64,000 bases of DNA from Oceanimonas doudoroffii (GTDB lineage: Bacteria > Pseudomonadota > Gammaproteobacteria > Enterobacterales > Aeromonadaceae). The DNA lies in contig NZ_NBIM01000010.1 in NCBI RefSeq assembly GCF_002242685.1, forward strand, positions 1 through 64,000, written 5' to 3'. The translations under genes and the position numbers were made by a program. A model generated the notes under the pieces. That model saw only the letters and a program-made list of their open reading frames with translations. It had not been told where the DNA came from and did not search any database. Of this stretch, positions 21,799-55,261 are shown piece by piece. How positions within the stretch are numbered: position 1 is the stretch's first letter; each line of letters begins with the position of its first letter.

Positions 21799-22030
21799 CG
21801 TCGGCCAAAGGGCACTGCTTCTTCGGCACACCGTAAACCCATCCTTGGCGCGAAGGGCGCGCCGAAGCAGACACCCTTTGCCCTCCTTATTCACCACCGA
21901 GCTGTCTGAAGATATTTGCTGGCAACACTGGAGTTACCTGAAGCAACGGTAGGGATTGCCGGAGCCGACCGTCAAATGCCATGGATGGCATTTGCCGAGC
22001 GTTCCAAGGATGGGCTCGAAGCGTGTCGGC
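21799..22030. repeat. Mosaic intergenic repeat, copy A (gltD/mtnN gap)
   Basis: Three modules, each found again in other gaps, occupy most of the 430-base gltD-mtnN gap. Module 1 (21799-21834, 36 bp) matches the minus sense of 48505-48540 and 54394-54429. Module 2 (21839-21888) matches the minus sense of 54318-54366. Module 3 (21929-22030, about 100 bp) matches the minus sense of 48179-48280 and contains the dyad AAATGCCATGGATGGCATTT (21974-21993). No reading frame here has a ribosome site or a recognisable product. The remainder up to mtnN shows nothing further. Confidence 0.8.
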
Positions 22031-22152
22031 GCAGGCAACCCTGCTGGTGCTTCGCATGGCAGGCCTTCAGGACGAATTCCCCCTTTCTGCAATCGGCCTT
22101 TTTCCTTGATGGTGTTACACTTGCGGCCATCATTTTTGCGGAAATCAGTGTT

Positions 22153-29354: not shown

Positions 29355-30641
29355 ATGTCCAAGTCTGACGAACTCTTTAACCAGGCCCGCCGCTTTATTC
29401 CCGGCGGTGTCAACTCACCGGTGCGCGCCTTCAGTGGCGTGGGTGGCACGCCCCGTTTTATCGAGCGCGCCGACGGCGCCCGCATGTATGACGTGGATGG
29501 CAACAGTTACATCGATTACGTGGGTTCCTGGGGTCCGATGATTCTGGGCCACAACGCCGCCGTGGTAAAAGATGCGGTGATCGAGGCCGTGTCCCGCGGC
29601 CTGAGCTTTGGCGCCCCCACCGGGGTGGAAGTGACCATGGCCGAGAAGGTGTCCCAGCTGGTGCCCTCCATGGAGCAGGTGCGCATGGTCAACTCCGGCA
29701 CCGAGGCCACCATGAGCGCCATTCGTCTGGCTCGGGGCTTTACCGGTCGCGACAAGATTCTGAAGTTTGAAGGCTGCTACCACGGTCATGCCGACTGCCT
29801 GCTGGTCAAGGCCGGCTCCGGTGCCCTGACCCTGGGCCAGCCCAATTCCCCCGGTGTGCCCGCCGACTTTGCCAAGCACACCCTGACCTGCACCTTTAAC
29901 GATCTGGACTCGGTGCGGGCCGCCTTTGAGGCCGCCCCCGCGGACATCGCCTGTATCATCGTGGAGCCGGTGGCCGGCAACATGAATTGCATTCCCCCCG
30001 CCCCCGGCTTCCTGGAAGGCCTGCGCACCCTCTGTGACGAGTTCGGTGCCCTGCTGATCTTTGACGAAGTGATGTGCGGTTTCCGCGCGTCTCTGGGCGG
30101 CGCTCAGGAGCGCTTTGGTGTGAAACCCGATCTGACCACCCTGGGCAAGATCATCGGCGGCGGCATGCCGGTGGGCGCCTTTGGCGGTCGCCGTGACGTG
30201 ATGGAGCACCTGGCGCCCACCGGCCCCGTGTATCAGGCCGGCACCCTGTCCGGCAACCCGGTGGCCATGGCCGCGGGCCTGGCCACCCTGAACGCCATCG
30301 GCCAGCCCGGTGTGTACGAAGCCCTGGAGCGAAAAACCAAGGAGCTGGTGGATGGCCTGCAGGCCGCGGCAGACAAGCACGGTATCCCCTTTACCACCAA
30401 CCGGGTCGGCGCCATGTTTGGTTTCTTCTTTACCGAGGAGAAAAACATCAGTTGCTACGAGCAGGTCACCCGCTGCGATCTGGGCGTCTTCAAGCGCTTC
30501 TTCCACCTGATGCTGGATCACGGCGTCTACCTGGCTCCCAGCGCCTTTGAAGCGGGCTTTATGTCTCTGGCCCACGGTGAGCAGGAAATTGCCGACACCC
30601 TGGCCGCCGCCGACAAGGCCTTTGCCGCGCTCAAGGGCTAA
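29355..30641 (+). CDS. hemL: Glutamate-1-semialdehyde 2,1-aminomutase
   Basis: PLP enzyme of 428 residues that makes 5-aminolevulinate in the C5 route to heme. [13 protein letters not shown] near the N-terminus, [32 protein letters not shown] and the PLP-lysine block [18 protein letters not shown] are present. ATG 29355 is 8 bases after AAGGA; an ATG at 29349 is too close to it. Monocistronic, with a strong hairpin downstream. Confidence 0.96.
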
Positions 30642-30681
30642 GGTTTAAGCAAACCGGTTTCGAGAAACAGTAACTGGGATT

Positions 30682-30750
30682 GCCGTAACGAAGTCAAAAG
30701 CCTGCTGCGAACATTCATGTTGTTCGCAGCAGGCTTTTTTAATGAGTGGC
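30682..30750. repeat. Mosaic intergenic repeat, copy D (after hemL)
   Basis: About 70 bp related to the minus sense of the block at 53981-54050 and to part of 48440-48496: the shared run goes from CCGTAACGAAGT through the CGAACATT...TGTTCG dyad to AATGAGTGGC. Here the dyad is extended to an 18-bp stem followed by T residues, so the repeat supplies the hemL terminator. The following stretch to about 30785 (GCGTGTCGG...ACCCTG) also resembles 22021-22043 weakly. Confidence 0.7.
30696..30740. terminator. hemL terminator (within repeat copy D)
   Basis: An 18-bp perfect stem: AAAAGCCTGCTGCGAACA (30696-30713) pairs with TGTTCGCAGCAGGCTTTT (30721-30738), followed by more T. The A-tract on the left allows it to work for the converging VOC gene as well. 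Confidence 0.92.
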
Positions 30751-30807
30751 TTTCGCCGTGGCGTGTCGGTGGAGGTACCCTGTAGTTTCGATCGCCAGAC
30801 TCTCCTC

Positions 30808-47526: not shown

Positions 47527-48057
47527 TTACTCCAGCGGCACAACCTTGCCGATATAGGGCAGGTTGCGGTACAGCTGGGCGTAGTCGATGCCGTAACCTA
47601 CCACGAATTCGTCGGGAATGGTAAAGCCCACCCAGTCGACCGGCACCTGTACCTCACGCCGCTCGGGCTTGTCGAGCAGGGTGCAGATGGTAAGTGAGGC
47701 CGGATTGCGCAGAGACAATATTTCCCTTACCTTGCTCAGGGTGTAACCGGTGTCGATGATGTCTTCCACGATTAGCACGTGCTTGCCATGGATCTCGTCG
47801 TCCAGATCCTTGAGGATGCGCACGTCCCGGTTGCTGTCCATGCTGTTGCCGTAGCTGGAGGCGGTCATGAAGTCGAGCCGCACCGGCACGGTGAGCTGAC
47901 GGCACAGATCGGCCAGAAAGACGCAGGAGCCCCGCAGCAGGCCCACCATGACCACTTCGTCGACGCCCTGATAGTGGGTGTTAATCTGTTCGCCCAGGGT
48001 CCTGGTTCTGGCATTGACCTCTTCGGTGCCGATCAGCACATCCACTCGGTGTTTCAT
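47527..48057 (-). CDS. hpt: Hypoxanthine phosphoribosyltransferase
   Basis: 176 residues; salvages hypoxanthine (and guanine) to IMP/GMP with PRPP. The PRPP-binding loop [32 protein letters not shown] and [20 protein letters not shown] are typical. It is on the minus strand upstream of yadGH, with a terminator between. Confidence 0.95.
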
Positions 48058-48575
48058 TGTTTCTGCTCCGTTCGGGTGCGAGCCACCCGGCTGTGATTAA
48101 AGCGGTATTTTAGCGGAATTCCCAAACCTGTGCACAAACGCGGATACGCAACGCGAAGCATCAGTGCGGTTGCACTCCGCCGACACGCTTCAAGTACTTC
48201 CCTGTAACGCTCGAAAATGCCATCCATGGCATTTTATGGTCGGCTTCGGCAATCCCCACTGCTGCTTCGAGTTACCTCGGCATCGCCTGCATGCAGTCAG
48301 GTCAGTACATTCTGAGGAGGGCAAAGGCCCACTGCGCCATGGCCGAAAATTGCTCCTGCATGTTCGGCATTCCCGCCATCCCTGGCGGTCAGATGCGCAG
48401 TGGAGCCCCCATGGGGCGAGCCTGCTCGCCGTAACGAAATGTTTCAGCCCGACCGAACATTCAGTATGTTCGCAGCGGGTTGAAACATTGAGTGGCATGT
48501 CATCACGGCGTGCCGAAGAAGCAGTGCGCTTTGTCCCACGAAGTGCACTGTACCCACAGACAACTTGTTTTTACT
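48058..48575. other. Gap hpt / ubiX: repeat-filled, no gene seen
   Basis: The gap is largely made of mosaic repeat modules (see copy B). Frames of 100-150 codons run across it on both strands, but they lack ribosome sites, have high Arg/Pro/Ser/His content and follow repeats found in other gaps, so I do not call them. The hpt promoter should lie within the first 80 bases next to 48057; I did not identify it with confidence. Confidence 0.65.
48179..48540. repeat. Mosaic intergenic repeat, copy B (hpt/ubiX gap)
   Basis: Three shared modules in a row. 48179-48280 matches the reverse of 21929-22030 and holds AAATGCCATCCATGGCATTT. 48336-48496 (about 160 bp) matches the reverse of 53981-54142 and contains three dyads: CGCCATCCCTGGCG, GGCGAGCCTGCTCGCC and CGAACATTCAGTATGTTCG. 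48505-48540 is the 36-bp module, same sense as 54394-54429 and reverse of 21799-21834. Differences between copies are mostly in loops and linkers. Confidence 0.83.
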
Positions 48576-49223
48576 TCAAGCTTCCGGCTTCGAGCCTGGG
48601 TTCGCGCCATACCCCCAGCGGCTGACCAGATCCTGATCCACACCCAGGTGATCCAGGATCCGCGCCACCATAAAATCGACCAGATCGTCGATGGTTTTCG
48701 GCTGGTGATAAAAGCCCGGCGCCGCCGGCATTATCGTCACCCCCATGCGCGCCAGTTTGAGCAGGTTTTCCAGGTGGATCTCGGACAGTGGCGACTCCCG
48801 GGGCACCAGGATCAACTGCCCCTTTTCCTTGATCACCACGTCGGCGGCCCGCTCGATCAGATTGTCGGAGGCGCCGCTGGCAATGGACGCCACCGTGCCC
48901 ATGGAGCAGGGGCAGATCACCATGCGTCGGGGCGCCCCCGAGCCCGAGGCCACCGGCGAGAACCATTCTTCCTTGCCATAGGCCCGAATTTGGCCAGGCT
49001 CGGCGCCGTAACGCTCACACAAATACTCGGCCAGCAGCTCCGGTTTGCCCGGCCACTGTTCGCCCTGCTCGGTGGCCAGCACCACTCGCGCGGCACCGGA
49101 CACCAGCAGGTGCACCTGCATGCCGGCTTTTACCAGACACTGCAGCAACGCCAGCGCATAAGGCGCACCGGAGGCGCCGCTCAGGGCCAGGGTGATCTGC
49201 TGATCACGGGCATACTCAGCCAT
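48576..49223 (-). CDS. ubiX: Flavin prenyltransferase UbiX
   Basis: 215 residues; makes prenylated FMN, the cofactor for the decarboxylase UbiD in ubiquinone synthesis. FMN-binding [65 protein letters not shown] and [20 protein letters not shown] are all hallmark blocks. ATG 49223 lies inside the 3' end of mpl (8-base overlap), so the two are translationally coupled. Confidence 0.95.
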
Positions 49224-50574
49224 GGGCCACCTCCAGCCCCGCCAGCAGCTTGCCGTGAATGCCGCCAAAGCCGCCGTTGCTCATGATGAGAATTTCGTCA
49301 CCGGCCTCGGCGTCGCGCACCAGGGCGTCAATCAGCGCATTGAGGTCGTCAAACACTCGGCCTTGCGGGCAACTCCCGGCCACGGCCTGCAGATCCCATT
49401 CCAAGCCCGGCGGCTGAAACAGGTAGGTGGCATCGGCCTGTTGCAGTGAATCGGCCAGCTCCCGCTGGTGTATACCCATTTTCATGGTATTGGATCGCGG
49501 CTCCAGCACCGCCAGCACGCGGCGGCCTGCACTGCGGGCCTTGAGGCCGGCCAGGGTGGTGGCGATGGCGGTGGGATGATGGGCAAAGTCGTCCCACACG
49601 CGAATGCCGGCTACCTCGCCCTTTTGCTCCATGCGCCGCCTGGGCGGCACAAAACCGCACAGGGCGGCGATGCCGTCCGCCACCGGCACCCCGGCGTGGC
49701 GAGCGGCGGCCAGGGCCATCAGTCCGTTGTTGACGTTATGCAGCCCCATACAGGACCAGTTCACCTCGCCCACCCGCTCATTGTCGAGCCAGACCGCAAA
49801 GCGGCTGCCGTCGGCGGCCTGCAGCTCGGCGCGCCACAGGCCGTCGTCGCCCACGTATTCCAGCTCGCTCCAGCAGCCCAAGTCCTTTACCTGTTCCAGC
49901 GCGTGAGTGTGAGTGGGCATCAGGATCCGGCCATGGCCGGGCACCATGCGCAGCAAATGATGGAACTGCCGCTGGATCGCCGCCAGATCCGGAAAAATAT
50001 CCGCATGATCAAACTCGAGGTTGTTGAGGATCAGGGTGCTGGGCCGGTAGTGCACAAACTTGGATCGCTTGTCGAAAAAGGCACTGTCGTACTCGTCCGC
50101 CTCGATCACGAAAAACGGCGACTCGCCGAGGCGGGCAGACACGTCAAAGTTGCCGGGCACGCCACCGATCAGAAAGCCGGGATGCAGGCCGCAGTCCTGC
50201 AGCACATGGGCCAGCATGCCGGAGGTGGTGGTCTTGCCGTGGGTACCGGCCACCGCCAGTACCCAGCGGTCCTGCAACACATGCTCCAGCAACCACTGAG
50301 GCCCGGAGGTATAAGGAATGCGCCGGTTGAGCACGGCCTCCACACAGGGGTTTCCCCGGCTCATGGCGTTGCCGATCACCACCAGATCCGGCATAGAATC
50401 CAGCTGGGCTGGATCATAGCCTTCGATCAGCGCGATGCCCTGCTGCTCAAGCTGGGTGCTCATGGGCGGGTAGACATTGGCATCGCTGCCGGTCACCTGG
50501 TAGCCAAGCTGACGGGCCAGCACCGCCAGACCACCCATAAAGGTGCCACAGATACCGAGAATATGAATGTGCAT
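49216..50574 (-). CDS. mpl: UDP-MurNAc:L-alanyl-gamma-D-glutamyl-meso-diaminopimelate ligase
   Basis: 452 residues; reattaches recycled tripeptide to UDP-MurNAc, in peptidoglycan recycling. [21 protein letters not shown] starts the Mur-ligase N-terminal domain, [18 protein letters not shown] is the ATP-binding loop, and [21 protein letters not shown] follows. ATG 50574 (MHIHILG) matches the family start; the frame is open 35 codons upstream. It is divergent from ppa. Confidence 0.95.
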
Positions 50575-50640
50575 AGGCTGCCTTCGGCGTAGTGAAAGTG
50601 GAGGCATTCTAGCAACCCGGCGGCACTTTGGGCACTGCTC

Positions 50641-50670
50641 TGGCGATTCACGCGACAGCCCGGTTATAAT
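50641..50670 (+). promoter_or_regulatory. Candidate ppa promoter
   Basis: A consensus TATAAT (50665-50670) with a weak -35 TGGCGA (50641-50646) 18 bp upstream. The predicted start near 50677 gives a leader of about 100 bases before ppa. Confidence 0.45.
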
Positions 50671-50774
50671 GCAGGCCACGCATCGCCGTCAGCCATTTGT
50701 ATAACAGATGCAATGCAGCCACGGTGGTACACTCTTTTCACAATTCCGTTACTGACTATCTACAAGGAAACGTC

Positions 50775-51305
50775 ATGAGCCTGAACCTGGTACCGGCCGG
50801 TAAGAGCCTGCCCGAAGATATCTATGTGGTTATCGAAATTCCTCAGAACGCCGATCCCATCAAGTATGAAGTGGACAAGGACACCGGCGCCGTGTTCGTG
50901 GATCGTTTCATGTCCACTCCCATGTTCTACCCCTGCAACTACGGCTACGTGAACCAGACCCTGTCCCTGGACGGCGACCCGGTAGACGTGCTGGTGCCCA
51001 CTCCGCACCCGCTGGTACCCGGTGCCGTGATCCGCTGCCGTCCGGTGGGTGTGCTGAAGATGACCGACGAGTCCGGTGAAGACGCCAAGGTGATCGCCGT
51101 TCCCCACAGCAAGCTGACCAAGGAATACGATCACATTCAGGACATCAACGACGTGCCCGAGCTGCTCAAGGCCCAGATCAAGCACTTCTTTGAGCGCTAT
51201 AAAGAGCTGGAAGCGGGCAAGTGGGTGAAGGTAGAAGGCTGGGAAGACAAGGCCGCCGCCGAAGCCGAAATCCTGGCTTCCGCCGAGCGCTACAACAAGG
51301 CGTGA
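50775..51305 (+). CDS. ppa: Inorganic pyrophosphatase (family I)
   Basis: 176 residues, same length class as E. coli Ppa; hydrolyses pyrophosphate and pulls biosynthesis forward. Active-site blocks [26 protein letters not shown] and the signature DGDPVDVLV are intact. ATG 50775 ([18 protein letters not shown]) follows AAGGA by 6 bases; the frame is open 26 codons upstream. Monocistronic with a strong terminator. Confidence 0.96.
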
Positions 51306-51326
51306 TAGTTCATTCCTTGTAAACAC

Positions 51327-51356
51327 AAAAAAAGAGCACTTCGGTGCTCTTTTTTT
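51327..51356. terminator. ppa terminator
   Basis: AAAAAAAGAGCAC-TTCG-GTGCTCTTTTTTT with a stable UUCG loop. The symmetric A/T tracts make it usable on both strands, which fits the small converging frame at 51446-51532. Confidence 0.93.
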
Positions 51357-51445
51357 GTTGGTGTGGCGGTCAGCCGGTCCGGGATAACCCCTTGATGACA
51401 AAGCCCCTAATGGGCCTTATGCTGTATGCAGTTTGACCGGTTGCC

Positions 51446-51532
51446 CTATATCATGACGGCGAGGATCCCGAGGCTTGAGACATAGCCGATGAACAGAAGC
51501 AACCAAGTCATCCTGGACTTGTCTTTTTGCAT
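51446..51532 (-). CDS. Candidate 28-residue membrane microprotein
   Basis: A short frame on the minus strand: ATG 51532, stop TAG ending at 51446. A perfect AAAGGAG lies 6 bases upstream of the ATG. The product starts MQKDKSRM (basic/polar) and continues TWLLLFIGYVSSLGILAVMI, one uninterrupted hydrophobic segment of 20 residues, so it would be a single-span inner-membrane protein with the basic end in the cytoplasm. It lies between ppa and the TIGR03899-like gene, converging on ppa, and can use the ppa terminator. I do not recognise the family. It may be chance, but ribosome site, charge pattern and hydrophobicity agree. Confidence 0.6.
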   Translation of the reverse strand: MQKDKSRMTWLLLFIGYVSSLGILAVMI

Positions 51533-51605
51533 TCGGTGCTCCTTTCGAAATTGCAGTCGAATGTTAACATGATGAAAACAAAATTAACAAGCTGAATCGA
51601 CGTTC

Positions 51606-52424
51606 ATGAACGCCAAACCACCCAGTCAGGATTCAAAGATCAAAAACAGCAAACACCTGCTGCGTGAACTCGCCGAGCAGCGTGGCCTGGCCGGACAGCT
51701 GCACGGAGATCCTGCCAATAGCCTGGGGGATCGTTACCAAGTTCGCCGGCAGCTGGACGAGGCCGCACGCCAGAAAAACCTGGAAACCATCATCGGTCAG
51801 GCCCATGAGCTGTGCGGCACCGAGGTGGCTGGCGAGCCGGATCCGGACTGGCTGAGCCATTTTCTGGATCTGGCCGAAAACATCCGTCACCCTGCCATGC
51901 AGCAGTTCTGGGCGCGTATTCTGGCCCGGGAAATCGGCCGGCCCGGACGCTGCTCGGTGCAGTCGCTGACCTGCCTGCGGCGCATGACTCAGAAGGATGC
52001 CCTGCTGCTGCAACGGGCCGGCGCCCTGGGTTGCCATTTCGGCGACGACAACCTTCGGCTGATCACCGGCTTCCGGCAAAAGGGGCTGTGGCAGGGGCTA
52101 CGTCAGCAAAAGCTCAATCCGGGCAAGTATCGCCTGCCCTACGCCGGGCTGATGCAGTTGTTTGAGCTGGGCTTGTTGCACCAGACCGAACTGGAGTCGG
52201 GGGAGTTGGTAGCCAGCACTCCGCTGACCCTGGTGCTGGCGGGTAGACGGCTGCAACTGAGCCCTCGGCGCCGGGGGGTGCGGCTGCTGTATCACCGCTT
52301 TACCGCCACCGGCAATGAGCTCGCCGGGTTGATGACGGAAGTGACGCCCAAGGAGTACGTCACGGATCTGATGGAGCTGCTGGCCCCGCTGGGCCAGCTG
52401 GAACAGGCGGGCGGAGAGGCTTAA
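51606..52424 (+). CDS. Uncharacterised protein, resembling TIGR03899 family
   Basis: 272 residues, no signal peptide or membrane span. The stretch HFLDLAENIRHPAMQQFWARILAREIGRPGRCSVQSLTCLRRMT resembles in memory the TIGR03899 family of unknown function found in Vibrio, Shewanella and relatives and the related DUF2806-like fold; the family label is recalled, not searched. Arg-rich and probably helical. The ribosome site of ATG 51606 is poor (only AAGCTGAATC upstream). It converges on cysG with a 4-base overlap of the coding ends and no terminator between. Confidence 0.72.
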   Translation: MNAKPPSQDSKIKNSKHLLRELAEQRGLAGQLHGDPANSLGDRYQVRRQLDEAARQKNLETIIGQAHELCGTEVAGEPDPDWLSHFLDLAENIRHPAMQQFWARILAREIGRPGRCSVQSLTCLRRMTQKDALLLQRAGALGCHFGDDNLRLITGFRQKGLWQGLRQQKLNPGKYRLPYAGLMQLFELGLLHQTELESGELVASTPLTLVLAGRRLQLSPRRRGVRLLYHRFTATGNELAGLMTEVTPKEYVTDLMELLAPLGQLEQAGGEA

Positions 52425-53815
52425 CCGGCGCGTTCAAGGGAAACGTCTGGAACTCCGGTGTTGAACCAGGCCAGGCTGTCCGCCAGTGAGGCCACCGAAC
52501 CGATCACCATCAGCGCCGGGCTTTCAACCCGAGTGGCGAGTTCGCTCAGTCCACTCAGCTCGCCCCGCACCACCTTCTGTTGCCGCGTGGTTCCCCGTTC
52601 GATCAGCGCCACCGGGGTGCCGGCGTCCAGGCCGTGGGCCAGCAGTTGCTGCTGAATATGCCCCGAGCGCATCAGTCCCATGTAGATAACCAGGGTCTGG
52701 CGGCCGCAGGCCAGGCTGGCCCAGTCCGGCTCTTCACCGTTCTTCTTGCAGTGGCCGGTAATGAATACCGCGCTCTGGGCATGATCCCGATGAGTAAGAG
52801 GAATGCCCGCATAGGCGGTGGCGCCGGCGGCGGCGGTAATGCCCGGCACCACCTGGTAACGAATACCCGCGGCCACCAGGGTCTCCAGCTCTTCCGCGCC
52901 CCGGCCAAACATAAAGGGATCGCCGCCCTTGAGCCGCACTACCCGCTTGCCTGCCAGCGCATGATCCACCAACAACTGGTTTATTTGATCCTGCGGCACG
53001 CTGTGGTTGCCCGCCTTCTTGCCCACGGGGATCCGCTCCGCCTCGGGACGGATCAGCGCCATGATCTCGTCGGACACCAGTTGATCGTAAAGCACCACAT
53101 CGGCCTTTTGCAGCTCGTTCAGAGCCTTGATCGTCAGCAGATCCGGATCCCCCGGCCCCGCCCCCACCAGGATCACCTCACCGCTTGAGGGCTGTTGCAC
53201 TTCCTGCTGCAGCCACTTCTCGGCGGCGGCCAGGTTGCCGTGCTTGAGAAAGGCATTGAGGGTGCTGTCGTCCTGAGTGCGGGCCCAGAACCGGCGGCGC
53301 TCGTCGCTGTTGCCCAGGGTGTTTTTCACCCGCTGGCGAAGGCGGCCGGCCACCTCCGCCAACGCGCCCCAGTGGGACGGCAGCAGGGCGTCGAGCCGGG
53401 CCCGCAACAAGCGAGCCAGCCAGGGCGCCTTGCCGCCGGTGCTGAGTGCCACCTGCAGCGGAAAGCGTTCCACCACGGACGGAAAGATCACCGCCGAGCG
53501 CTTGCTGTCGTCGGCCTTGTTCACCAGCAGGCCGCGCTGGTTGGCAAGCTGGTAGACCCGGGCGTTGACTTCCGCACTGTCGGTGGCGGTAACCACCAGA
53601 AAGCGGCCGTCGAGATGAACCTCATCAAAGGAAGCCTGAAGCCACTCGAACTCGGACAGCTGTTGTTCCAGTTCGAGGCAGAGCTTCGGAGCCACCACGG
53701 TCAGCCTGGCGCCCCGGGACAGCAGCAAGCGGGCCTTGCGGGCGGCCACGGCACCGCCGCCCACCACCAGGCAGGGACGTTGTTCAATGCTGATAAAAAG
53801 AGGCAGGTGTTCCAT
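52421..53815 (-). CDS. cysG: Siroheme synthase (trifunctional)
   Basis: 464 residues; turns uroporphyrinogen III into siroheme, the cofactor of sulfite reductase CysI encoded nearby. The N-terminal NAD-dependent dehydrogenase/ferrochelatase half starts MEHLPLFISIEQRPCLVVGGG and contains LSTGGKAPWLARLLRARLD; the C-terminal SAM-dependent methyltransferase half has VGAGPGDPDLLTIKAL, RLKGGDPFMFGRGAEE and VVPGITAAAG. Its gene is separated from cysH by the repeat-rich gap. Upstream, at the same distance as for cysJ, lies a shared 20-bp dyad. Confidence 0.95.
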   Translation of the reverse strand: MEHLPLFISIEQRPCLVVGGGAVAARKARLLLSRGARLTVVAPKLCLELEQQLSEFEWLQASFDEVHLDGRFLVVTATDSAEVNARVYQLANQRGLLVNKADDSKRSAVIFPSVVERFPLQVALSTGGKAPWLARLLRARLDALLPSHWGALAEVAGRLRQRVKNTLGNSDERRRFWARTQDDSTLNAFLKHGNLAAAEKWLQQEVQQPSSGEVILVGAGPGDPDLLTIKALNELQKADVVLYDQLVSDEIMALIRPEAERIPVGKKAGNHSVPQDQINQLLVDHALAGKRVVRLKGGDPFMFGRGAEELETLVAAGIRYQVVPGITAAAGATAYAGIPLTHRDHAQSAVFITGHCKKNGEEPDWASLACGRQTLVIYMGLMRSGHIQQQLLAHGLDAGTPVALIERGTTRQQKVVRGELSGLSELATRVESPALMVIGSVASLADSLAWFNTGVPDVSLERAG

Positions 53816-53879
53816 GGCCGGCTCCGCGAATAACGATAGACAGCCTAACTATAAACCCCGGGTCATATAGCCACATAAT

Positions 53880-53899
53880 AATAAAAAATGATTTTTTAT
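53880..53899 (-). promoter_or_regulatory. Candidate CysB-type operator of cysG
   Basis: The minus strand reads ATAAAAAATCATTTTTTATT, 65-84 bases before the cysG ATG. It shares 17 of 20 bases with the element upstream of cysJ and contains an ATAAA...TTTAT dyad. The sulfur regulator CysB (LysR type) is the natural candidate, by inference from the genes served. Confidence 0.5.
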
Positions 53900-53980
53900 G
53901 CCTTTAACGCATTAGTGGTGTCTTCAGAGCTGTACAGAGGTCGAACAAAGGCACTACTTCACGACACGCTTCGGTGAAGG

Positions 53981-54429
53981 CCACTCACTAAAAATACCTG
54001 CTGCGAACATACTCAATGTTCGGTCAGGCATTTTTACTTCGTCACGGCGAGCAAGCTCGCCCCATGAACGCTCGGCAAATGTATCTGACCGCCAGGGATG
54101 GCGGGAATGCCGAAAATGCAGGAGCAACTTTTCGGCCATGGCATTTGATCGGTCGTGAAGCAGACACCTTTGCTCTCCCTCTTCGGCATCGACTTCGCCT
54201 ATAACAACTCTTTGAACGCTTGCGCGAATATCAGGATTGGAAGGAACCTTTCTATTTACAGAAAAGATATACATTCCCACGAGAAGTGTGGAAACGAGAG
54301 GCAACTCGGCAGTTAACAAGGAGGGCAAAGGGTGTCTGCTTCGCCGGCCCTTCGCGCCAGGGATGGCGAGACGGAGCTTACATGGAGGTATTTACAGCGT
54401 GCCGGAGAAGCAGTGCGCTTTGTCCGACG
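53981..54429. repeat. Mosaic intergenic repeat, copy C (cysG/cysH gap)
   Basis: Contains the 160-bp block 53981-54142 (reverse of 48336-48496), with dyads CGAACATACTCAATGTTCG, GGCGAGCAAGCTCGCC and CGCCAGGGATGGCG; a block 54318-54366 (reverse of 21839-21888); and the 36-bp module 54394-54429 (same sense as 48505-48540). The stretch between them (54143-54317) includes GAAGCAGACACC (near 54157), again a piece of the second block, and otherwise unique sequence. Confidence 0.83.
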
Positions 54430-54460
54430 ACCTTGCCTGGACTGACAAACAGCGCAAAGC

Positions 54461-54490
54461 AAAAGGGCCGGCAAATGCCGGCCCTTTTTT
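54461..54490. terminator. Terminator after cysH
   Basis: AAAAGGGCCGGC-AAAT-GCCGGCCCTTTT, a 12-bp stem with T-tract on plus and TTTTGCTTT on minus, 4 bases after the cysH stop. It would end the cysJIH transcript and separate it from the repeat gap. Confidence 0.88.
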
Positions 54491-54493
54491 AAA

Positions 54494-55261
54494 TTAGATA
54501 CCACTACCGTCGGACTCGGGCACTTCGTGCAGGCCGCATTCGCGCTTGAGGCCGTTGAAGCGGGTATCCGCTTCGCTCATGCCCGGCTCCCACCTGGTGG
54601 TGGTATGCACATCGCCCACCGACACATAACCTTGTTCCCACAGCGGGTGATAAGGCAGGTCATGGTCCTTCAGGTAGTAGTGCACGTCCTTGTTGCTCCA
54701 GTCGATGATCGGCAGGAACTTGAACAGGCCGTTCTGCACGCCCAGCACCTGCAGCCCCTCACGGGTATCGGACTGGCTACGGCGCAGACCGGAGAACCAG
54801 GTAGTGGCGTTCAGCTCGCGCAGTGCCCGCTGCATCGGCTCCACCTTGTTAAGGTGGTTGTAGCGGCTGATGCCTTCCACGCCCTGCTCCCACAACTTGC
54901 CGTGGCGGGCTTCCTGCCAGGCGGCAGATTCCGCCGCCCGGTATACCTTCAGGTTGAGCTTGAGACGCTCGGTAAGCTCGTCGATAAAACGGTAGGTCTC
55001 GGGAAACAGATAGCCGGTATCGGTGAGGATCACTGGAATCTCGGCCTTGGCCTGAGTCACCAGGTGCAGCATCACCGCCGCCTGAATGCCGAAACTGGAG
55101 GAGAGCACAGGCTCTCCCGGCAGATTGTCCAGGGCCCAGCGCACCCGCTCGGGGGCGCTCATGGCGGCCAGCTCTTTGTTGAGTGGCGCCAGGGCCTCGA
55201 CCTGCTCCTGTCGGGACAGGCCGGTCAGCTCGTCAAGAGCGGGCAACACACTAGACTGCAT
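54494..55261 (-). CDS. cysH: Phosphoadenylyl-sulfate (PAPS) reductase
   Basis: 255 residues; reduces PAPS to sulfite with thioredoxin. PP-loop [32 protein letters not shown] and the catalytic ECGLH near the C-terminus (Cys242) are present. The absence of the extra cysteine pairs of APS reductases indicates the PAPS-specific class. It overlaps the end of cysI by 11 bases, so it is the last gene of cysJIH. Confidence 0.95.

Follow-up and report, generated by a model that had tools for sequence, protein, structure and literature searches.

We report that two intergenic regions of Oceanimonas doudoroffii share, in opposite orientation, a block of about 160 bp that probably represents the long-form head of a mobile hairpin element. 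The element would belong to an unnamed, non-autonomous family and be recognised through this head as a folded single strand. The blocks lie within the first 64,000 nucleotides of contig NZ_NBIM01000010.1 (this whole stretch is referred to as the window), copy 1 at 48336-48496 (+) in the gap between hpt and ubiX and copy 2 at 53980-54142 (-) in the gap between cysG and cysH. An element carries a conserved head flanked by two outer arms, about 25-40 bp long, that are paired with one another. Heads are of two kinds: the long head of the genus has four hairpins, and in the short head two small hairpins make up a three-way junction. The initial annotation of this DNA, made from the sequence alone, took the 160-bp block as the unit; our comparisons place it as an exchangeable head inside a larger, armed element.

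The two copies match over their entire length, with an inverted complementarity of 96% for 48346-48394/54083-54131 and 77% for 48403-48496/53980-54073; the limits of copy 2 were set by a covariance model that was built partly from these copies. Blastn of the block against its own genome gave 13 matches at E ≤ 0.01, seven spanning the block wholly or for the greater part and six confined to one half, left or right, and chance sharing, or paralogy confined to two copies, is therefore excluded. The inverted sharing that had been proposed is confirmed. The Pfam domains of the neighbouring genes, i.e. phosphoribosyltransferase (hpt), flavoprotein (ubiX), CysG domains and PAPS reductase (cysH), agree with the gene names given in the initial annotation, and a coding role for the block was rejected since the open reading frames over both copies are mechanical only. 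Copy 1 folds more stably than all of 200 shuffled sequences, both as DNA (+ strand) and as RNA (either strand), and the alignment consensus comprises four hairpins (H1-H4). The three dyads described earlier are all present, but there are at least four: H1 had been overlooked, as had the long lower stem of H4 and the outer arms around the block. The earlier statement that most changes between copies fall in loops or linkers is only partly right; many of the changes in H4 are in the stem and have a matching change opposite (10 of 16 pairs in seven copies).

To follow the pairing beyond these copies we used two covariance models. R1, built from seven full copies, was used to align 67 long copies (66 distinct), consisting of seven from the own genome and 60 sister copies from the top of those listed, thinned for genomes G015 and G019. 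Among the 66 distinct copies, 30 of the 42 pairs changed on both sides compared to 15.8 ± 1.7 in shuffles, and two-sided change was seen in 284 cells, which count sequences and not events, compared to 74.0 ± 8.5. The covariation was 0.327, and 0.042-0.073 when the partner was slid. The lower stem of H4 had two-sided change in 14 of 14 pairs and is hypervariable yet matched. R2, built from 17 short-head copies, aligned 93 matches from 27 other gammaproteobacterial genomes; four places are doubled among these (L320/L360 and L328/L399), which leaves 89 places and 86 distinct rows. In the 86 distinct short cores 93.1% of the cells pair, compared to 65.7% in shuffles, and the covariation was 0.694 versus 0.076-0.119 with the partner slid. 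Pairing is conserved across the copies despite change on both sides, and many copies with compensating changes, which according to the initial annotation would support a new family, are present in the sister genomes.

Outside the head, the flanks of the block pair with each other in the 67 long copies, mostly at equal distance, with the arms positioned about 8-10 nt upstream and about 14-17 nt downstream of the block; a few of these copies have no arm pair at the expected place. The arm sequence varies widely from copy to copy, and the mean local arm score was 16.2 for the two arms of the same copy versus 10.5 for arms of different copies. The short forms of the own genome are about 110-130 bp including the arms, which are of two types, A and B. 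When 23 of these were folded individually most gave a long arm stem with two small hairpins, i.e. the three-way junction, and the truncated ones did not. At about a dozen places in the own genome (coordinates by eye) a type A and a type B element lie side by side and point apart. Copies 1 and 2 each form such a divergent pair with a short-form companion, and both companions, 48147-48276 and 54320-54425, are among the seeds of R2; the stretches 48147-48276 and 54130-54500 have 25 and 28 matches in the own genome, respectively.

Class-wide, the arms of the short form, measured without a model, have a median length of 30 bp including six inner pairs and reach 25 bp or more in 68 of the 93 matches (distinct places: 66 of 89). 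In genome G298 the arms, compared over 22 nt, differ by 62% among 13 copies, and the mismatch within a copy is 1.0%; the corresponding values are 64% and 1.7% in G149, and 48% and 5.3% in G245. Because copies differ this strongly and the mismatch within each copy stays low, the arms mostly change as matched pairs. The arms are nearly common to the copies in G127 (7% between copies, 2.7% within), and the G143 set (20% between, 17% within) is evidence of old or decaying sets of elements.

Comparison of orthologous sites provides insight into how the elements change in place. Of the copies fetched from G162 and G278 (14 and 15, respectively), three sites are occupied in both genomes, and at two of these the element is inverted within flanks that align over about 3 kb (L429/L439, 87%; L436/L426, 81%); the third (L430/L420) has the same orientation. 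In the hpt/ubiX gap, G002 has the entire pair in the opposite orientation to that in G000, G005, G009 and G013. Another apparent inversion, L004/L107, was not a flip since two different members of one pair had been compared. The heads also vary: the copy 1 site in G013 carries a short head and arms of the same type, the copy 2 site in G002 a short head on like arms, and the element neighbouring copy 2 has the long head in G003 and the short head in G005 and G013. Long and short heads thus replace each other with the arms unchanged; in the direction that we consider likely, the long head would have replaced the short one. Moreover, one clean pair of a filled and an empty site was available (L442/L331). 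The arm sequence is absent from the empty site, so the arms came with the element at L442, and the idea that arms are copies of the local target found no support there. The G298/G332 comparison was too diverged for use on the origin of the arms.

Both gaps are variably occupied within the genus. Full elements according to the models are present between hpt and ubiX in six of 23 genomes (G000, G002, G005, G007, G009 and G013), with a weak remnant in G021, and between cysG and cysH likewise in six of 23 (G000, G002, G003, G005, G013 and G019). In G009 the cysG/cysH locus stops at 449 bp from the part of cysH that was matched, and of a short head it displays the right part only. In this locus (L448, 1952-2400) the short element beside cysH is seemingly broken by another insertion, with a 24-residue tail that by eye resembles the end of an IS110-type transposase and has no Pfam match. 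In G016 the cysG/cysH gap (L458, 1066-1467, -) has a 133-amino-acid CBS-domain gene (E 1.2e-29) in the place of the element, and by eye a CBS-domain gene is likewise present in the gap of G018 (L462).

The wobble pairs suggest that one strand folds alone, as RNA or as single-stranded DNA (ssDNA), because a double-stranded site is not expected to give a bias of G-U over A-C. Read on the block strand, G-U exceeds A-C in most helices. The G-U/A-C ratio in the long form is 92/28 overall and 64/5 in H4; 16 of the 17 genomes with either kind favour G-U and one favours A-C, where the per-genome counts for H4 (helix 4) include identical rows. For the outer arms the ratio is 51/11 class-wide (symmetric script; 10 genomes versus two, with four ties), 39/5 for the own short arms, 170/122 for the long arms of the genus and 82/53 for Halomonas, and for the class P2 helix it is 29/7. 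All these counts come from related copies and are hence not independent. The strand recognised is most likely ssDNA.

A strand-specific wobble together with covariation would also be in keeping with a structured RNA family in which the block strand is transcribed, as part of a 3' untranslated region (UTR) or as a small RNA, and its fold serves in the protection, processing or regulation of neighbouring transcripts. We therefore looked at the gene context, with gene orientation taken from a codon-score script and not from curated genes. The Halomonas sample consisted of 55 of 69 Halomonadaceae matches (the rest were omitted by hand, mostly near locus ends), one more being dropped as short; calls were obtained for 51 of 67 copies in the own genus (15 weak, one short) and for 62 of 93 class-wide (23 weak, three short, five repeats). 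In Halomonas the copy follows the upstream gene, with the block strand in the direction of that gene, in 46 of 54 cases, and a terminator finder predicted a sense terminator after four of 55 copies and none in the 150 nt before them, with no control on other gene ends. The orientation and the lack of a terminator before the copies speak for an RNA, and Halomonas alone suggests a 3' UTR element. However, the block strand is in line with the upstream gene in just 26 of 62 cases class-wide and in 26 of 51 in the own genus, where the bias is the opposite one: in 42 of 51 cases the 3'-side gene is directed towards the element. Hence, a general 3' UTR element is unsupported class-wide, there is no common rule of gene orientation, and this argues against a general cis-acting RNA role. 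Because the orientation is inconsistent and related species have some of the elements inverted at the same site, a cis-acting RNA is not favoured; furthermore, one member of each divergent pair is always antisense and no Rfam family matches at its cut-off. Taken together, we regard an RNA family as unlikely.

As to distribution, R1 at E ≤ 0.001 matches in 29 of 61 genomes: 22 of 23 in the own genus (own genome included), one of 14 from other genera of the family and six of 24 further afield, the last being weaker and mostly to the H1/H2 part. With 47 candidates per genome scored, the highest per-genome counts are lower bounds. A pattern for the H1/H2 part was found in at least 120 stretches in named genomes; the 80 stretches listed are mostly from Halomonas, Vreelandella, Modicisalibacter and Chromohalobacter, and also from Oceanisphaera, Zobellella and Thalassolituus. 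In L063 (G056, another order), near 1300-1700, the H1/H2 part is repeated several times in a row. R2 at E ≤ 1e-4 matches in 43 of 274 gammaproteobacterial genomes (own included), representing 39 of 222 genera. The short head is matched in 10 of 40 genomes around and including G298, and copy number is patchy: G298 has 65 copies and G332, of the same genus, has none. The elements are thus dispersed among the genes of many bacteria, marine ones and others, and are mostly chromosomal. The long block had one match among 72,556 plasmid records (78.5% over 78 bp, in a Halomonas record of 1.8 Mb), one short head had no match among the plasmid records, and one exact pattern had no match in viral contigs; carriage by phages or plasmids was rejected on these grounds.

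The patchiness bears on whether the host maintains the sequence as a DNA cruciform, i.e. as a binding site for chromosome proteins (gyrase, HU/IHF-like) under selection as in BIMEs. Many intergenic copies, BIME-like divergent pairs and the absence of a common gene orientation are what such a site could look like. Yet 65 copies versus none within a genus and sites that are polymorphic between sister species do not fit an indispensable host function, and the one-strand wobble bias is unexpected for a double-stranded site, which makes this explanation improbable.

We compared the element with known families. In the Rfam search the region 47900-54600 gave 10 matches at E ≤ 5, none at the gathering score (one, SNORND104, overlaps the end of copy 1 with 18.2 bits versus a cut-off of 40), and 15 loci gave one match at E ≤ 0.1, below its cut-off. 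A guanidine-II riboswitch has a weak match in L155 (194-243, -; 30.2 bits versus a cut-off of 32). Neither of the findings that would have spoken against a new family, i.e. only two copies in the genome or an Rfam family at its gathering score, was made. We refer to the family as unnamed: in addition to the absence of an Rfam family at cut-off, no listing obtained in searches of open-licence PMC papers gave it a name.

Among the named repeats, REPINs consist of inverted hairpin units, are non-autonomous and are probably recognised as a single strand (PMC3116915). The present elements are likewise short, non-autonomous, intergenic hairpins in inverted pairs with probable single-strand recognition, and could in principle be REPINs that a REP-associated Y1 tyrosine transposase (RAYT) mobilises. 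Hairpins are also present within a larger hairpin, as judged by pairing and not by REP motifs. The elements differ in having a three-way-junction head and copy-specific arms, and in lacking an association with Y1/RAYT genes. Specifically, the Y1_Tnp domain (PF01797), which also covers IS200-type genes, is absent from five of the 22 genomes of the genus that carry R1 matches and from G298 with its 65 copies, and class-wide it is found in 16 of 20 carriers versus 14 of 20 non-carriers. Near Y1 genes, R1 had a best E of 0.0019 in 18 loci, with the others above 0.1, and in 22 loci R2 gave one weak match only (E 0.0007; L470 1999-2062, -, in G162). A REPIN origin is hence very improbable.

ERIC (RU-1) shares with the element that it is an imperfect palindrome (100-270 bp), intergenic, present in many copies and gammaproteobacterial, and a short string, GGAGCTTACAT, is similar. 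However, ERIC as published adopts the fold of a single long hairpin, R2 run with filters off against two E. coli ERIC loci (L474 and L475) reached 7.8 bits at best, outside the ERIC core, and one short element had no match at E ≤ 10 in 20,395 E. coli records. That the element is a divergent ERIC, or another enterobacterial repeat that already has a name, therefore has hardly any likelihood. With Correia elements and other bacterial miniature inverted-repeat transposable elements (MITEs) it has in common that it is small, non-coding, intergenic and palindromic, and the outer arms represent terminal inverted repeats, a MITE feature; it differs in that the internal head and not the terminal repeats is conserved and that the arms are copy-specific. 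The single empty site gives no clear sign of a duplicated target. Correia elements can invert, as stated in a passage of a MITE review (PMC10969869). In summary, the element works like REPINs and MITEs, has terminal repeats as MITEs have, and was placed in neither the REPINs nor ERIC. The initial annotation, which suggested an ERIC/BIME-like repeat, a small non-autonomous element or an RNA, was thus right in kind, except that the model search speaks against ERIC and a cis-acting RNA is not favoured. Integron attC sites also have variable matched stems, and one of their strands is recognised as a folded hairpin, which would be a further likeness.

On the reading of a mobile hairpin element, an enzyme whose gene lies elsewhere would recognise the folded strand via the head. 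The arms would be kept identical, while drifting in sequence, by inversion and by copying from one arm to the other, and heads would spread between copies by conversion. The block common to the two gaps would then stem from replacement of short heads by the long head at each of two old sites of insertion.

Several results weigh against this mobile-element explanation. No transposition was seen and no enzyme was found, PF01797 being the one family tried. The L430/L420 pair decays in place, many orthologs, including other orthologous long copies of the genus, are unchanged in orientation, and there is no clear target duplication at L442/L331. The gene orientations in Halomonas, where the block strand mostly runs with the upstream gene, and those of the own genus, where the 3'-side gene mostly reads towards the element, are not predicted by pure insertion. 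The G-U/A-C bias fails or reverses in class P3 (4/12), Halomonas P2 (2/8), H1 (4/9) and H3 (6/6). In the short head, 16 pairs with two-sided change compare to 14.9 in shuffles (86 of 500 shuffles reach 16) and 52 further pair types compare to 48.1 (28 of 500 reach 52), with similar values in a second such comparison, and the alignments in general were fitted to the models and hence lean towards structure.

More tentatively, the elements may represent a class of gammaproteobacterial mobile DNA in which only the internal, one-strand-recognised three-way-junction head is conserved. The long perfect arms would be continually rewritten as pairs by inversion and arm-to-arm copying, heads would be swapped and grow by new hairpins, and the enzyme would be unrelated to Y1/RAYT.

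The features in the window are listed in Table 1. In addition to the elements at the two gaps these include a third divergent pair and a lone H4 module. The ends of the stem of the lone module are A-rich and T-rich, as in a terminator, and its apex (GACC-hairpin-GCAG in other copies) by eye resembles a minimal short head. A terminator function for the block was rejected: the lone module looks like a terminator, but TTTT is present in the 3' side of H4 in just 10 of the 67 long copies.

Table 1. Positions in the window of the heads, hairpins, arms and related elements.
Feature	Position	Strand	Basis or remark
Copy 1, long-form head, ubiX/hpt gap	48336..48496	+	R1 match, E 9.5e-57; alignments
Hairpin H1 of copy 1 (GCCGAAAA / TTCGGC)	48342..48368	+	Alignment structure, pair counts
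Hairpin H2 of copy 1 (CCGCCA tccc TGGCGG)	48373..48388	+	Alignment structure, pair counts
Hairpin H3 of copy 1 (GGCGAGC / GCTCGCC)	48415..48430	+	Alignment structure, pair counts
Hairpin H4 of copy 1	48438..48489	+	Hypervariable matched lower stem 48438-48451/48476-48489; conserved apex 48454-48472
Shortened type B arm on the 5' side of copy 1 (longer in the G005 ortholog)	48316..48335	+	Arm comparison
3' outer arm of copy 1	48505..48536	+	Arm comparison
Short-form type A companion, divergent pair with copy 1	48147..48276	-	R2 core 48179-48244, E 3.9e-19
Copy 2, long-form head, cysH/cysG gap	53980..54142	-	R1 match, E 4.8e-61
Left-hand outer arm of copy 2 (as seen in the window)	53945..53969	-	Arm comparison
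Right-hand outer arm of copy 2 (as seen in the window)	54153..54172	-	Arm comparison
Short-form type B companion, divergent pair with copy 2	54320..54425	+	R2 core 54343-54406, E 7e-15
Third divergent pair: type B remnant at 21799-21907 (-) with a short type A element at 21931-22055 (+)	21799..22055		R2 core 21964-22030, E 1.1e-19
Lone H4 module shortly past a gene end (frame by eye), terminator-like	30684..30752	+	R1 30612-30750, E 1.9e-9

Heads, arms and in-place flips can be followed by direct comparison of genomes. If our explanation is correct, about one in six of the sampled gammaproteobacterial genomes (43 of 274) would carry a repeat for which there is no Rfam family and which our searches of open-licence papers did not bring up. 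Moreover, the elements would provide a system for studying how the two arms of bacterial palindromic DNA stay identical and how non-autonomous hairpins can spread in the absence of RAYT.

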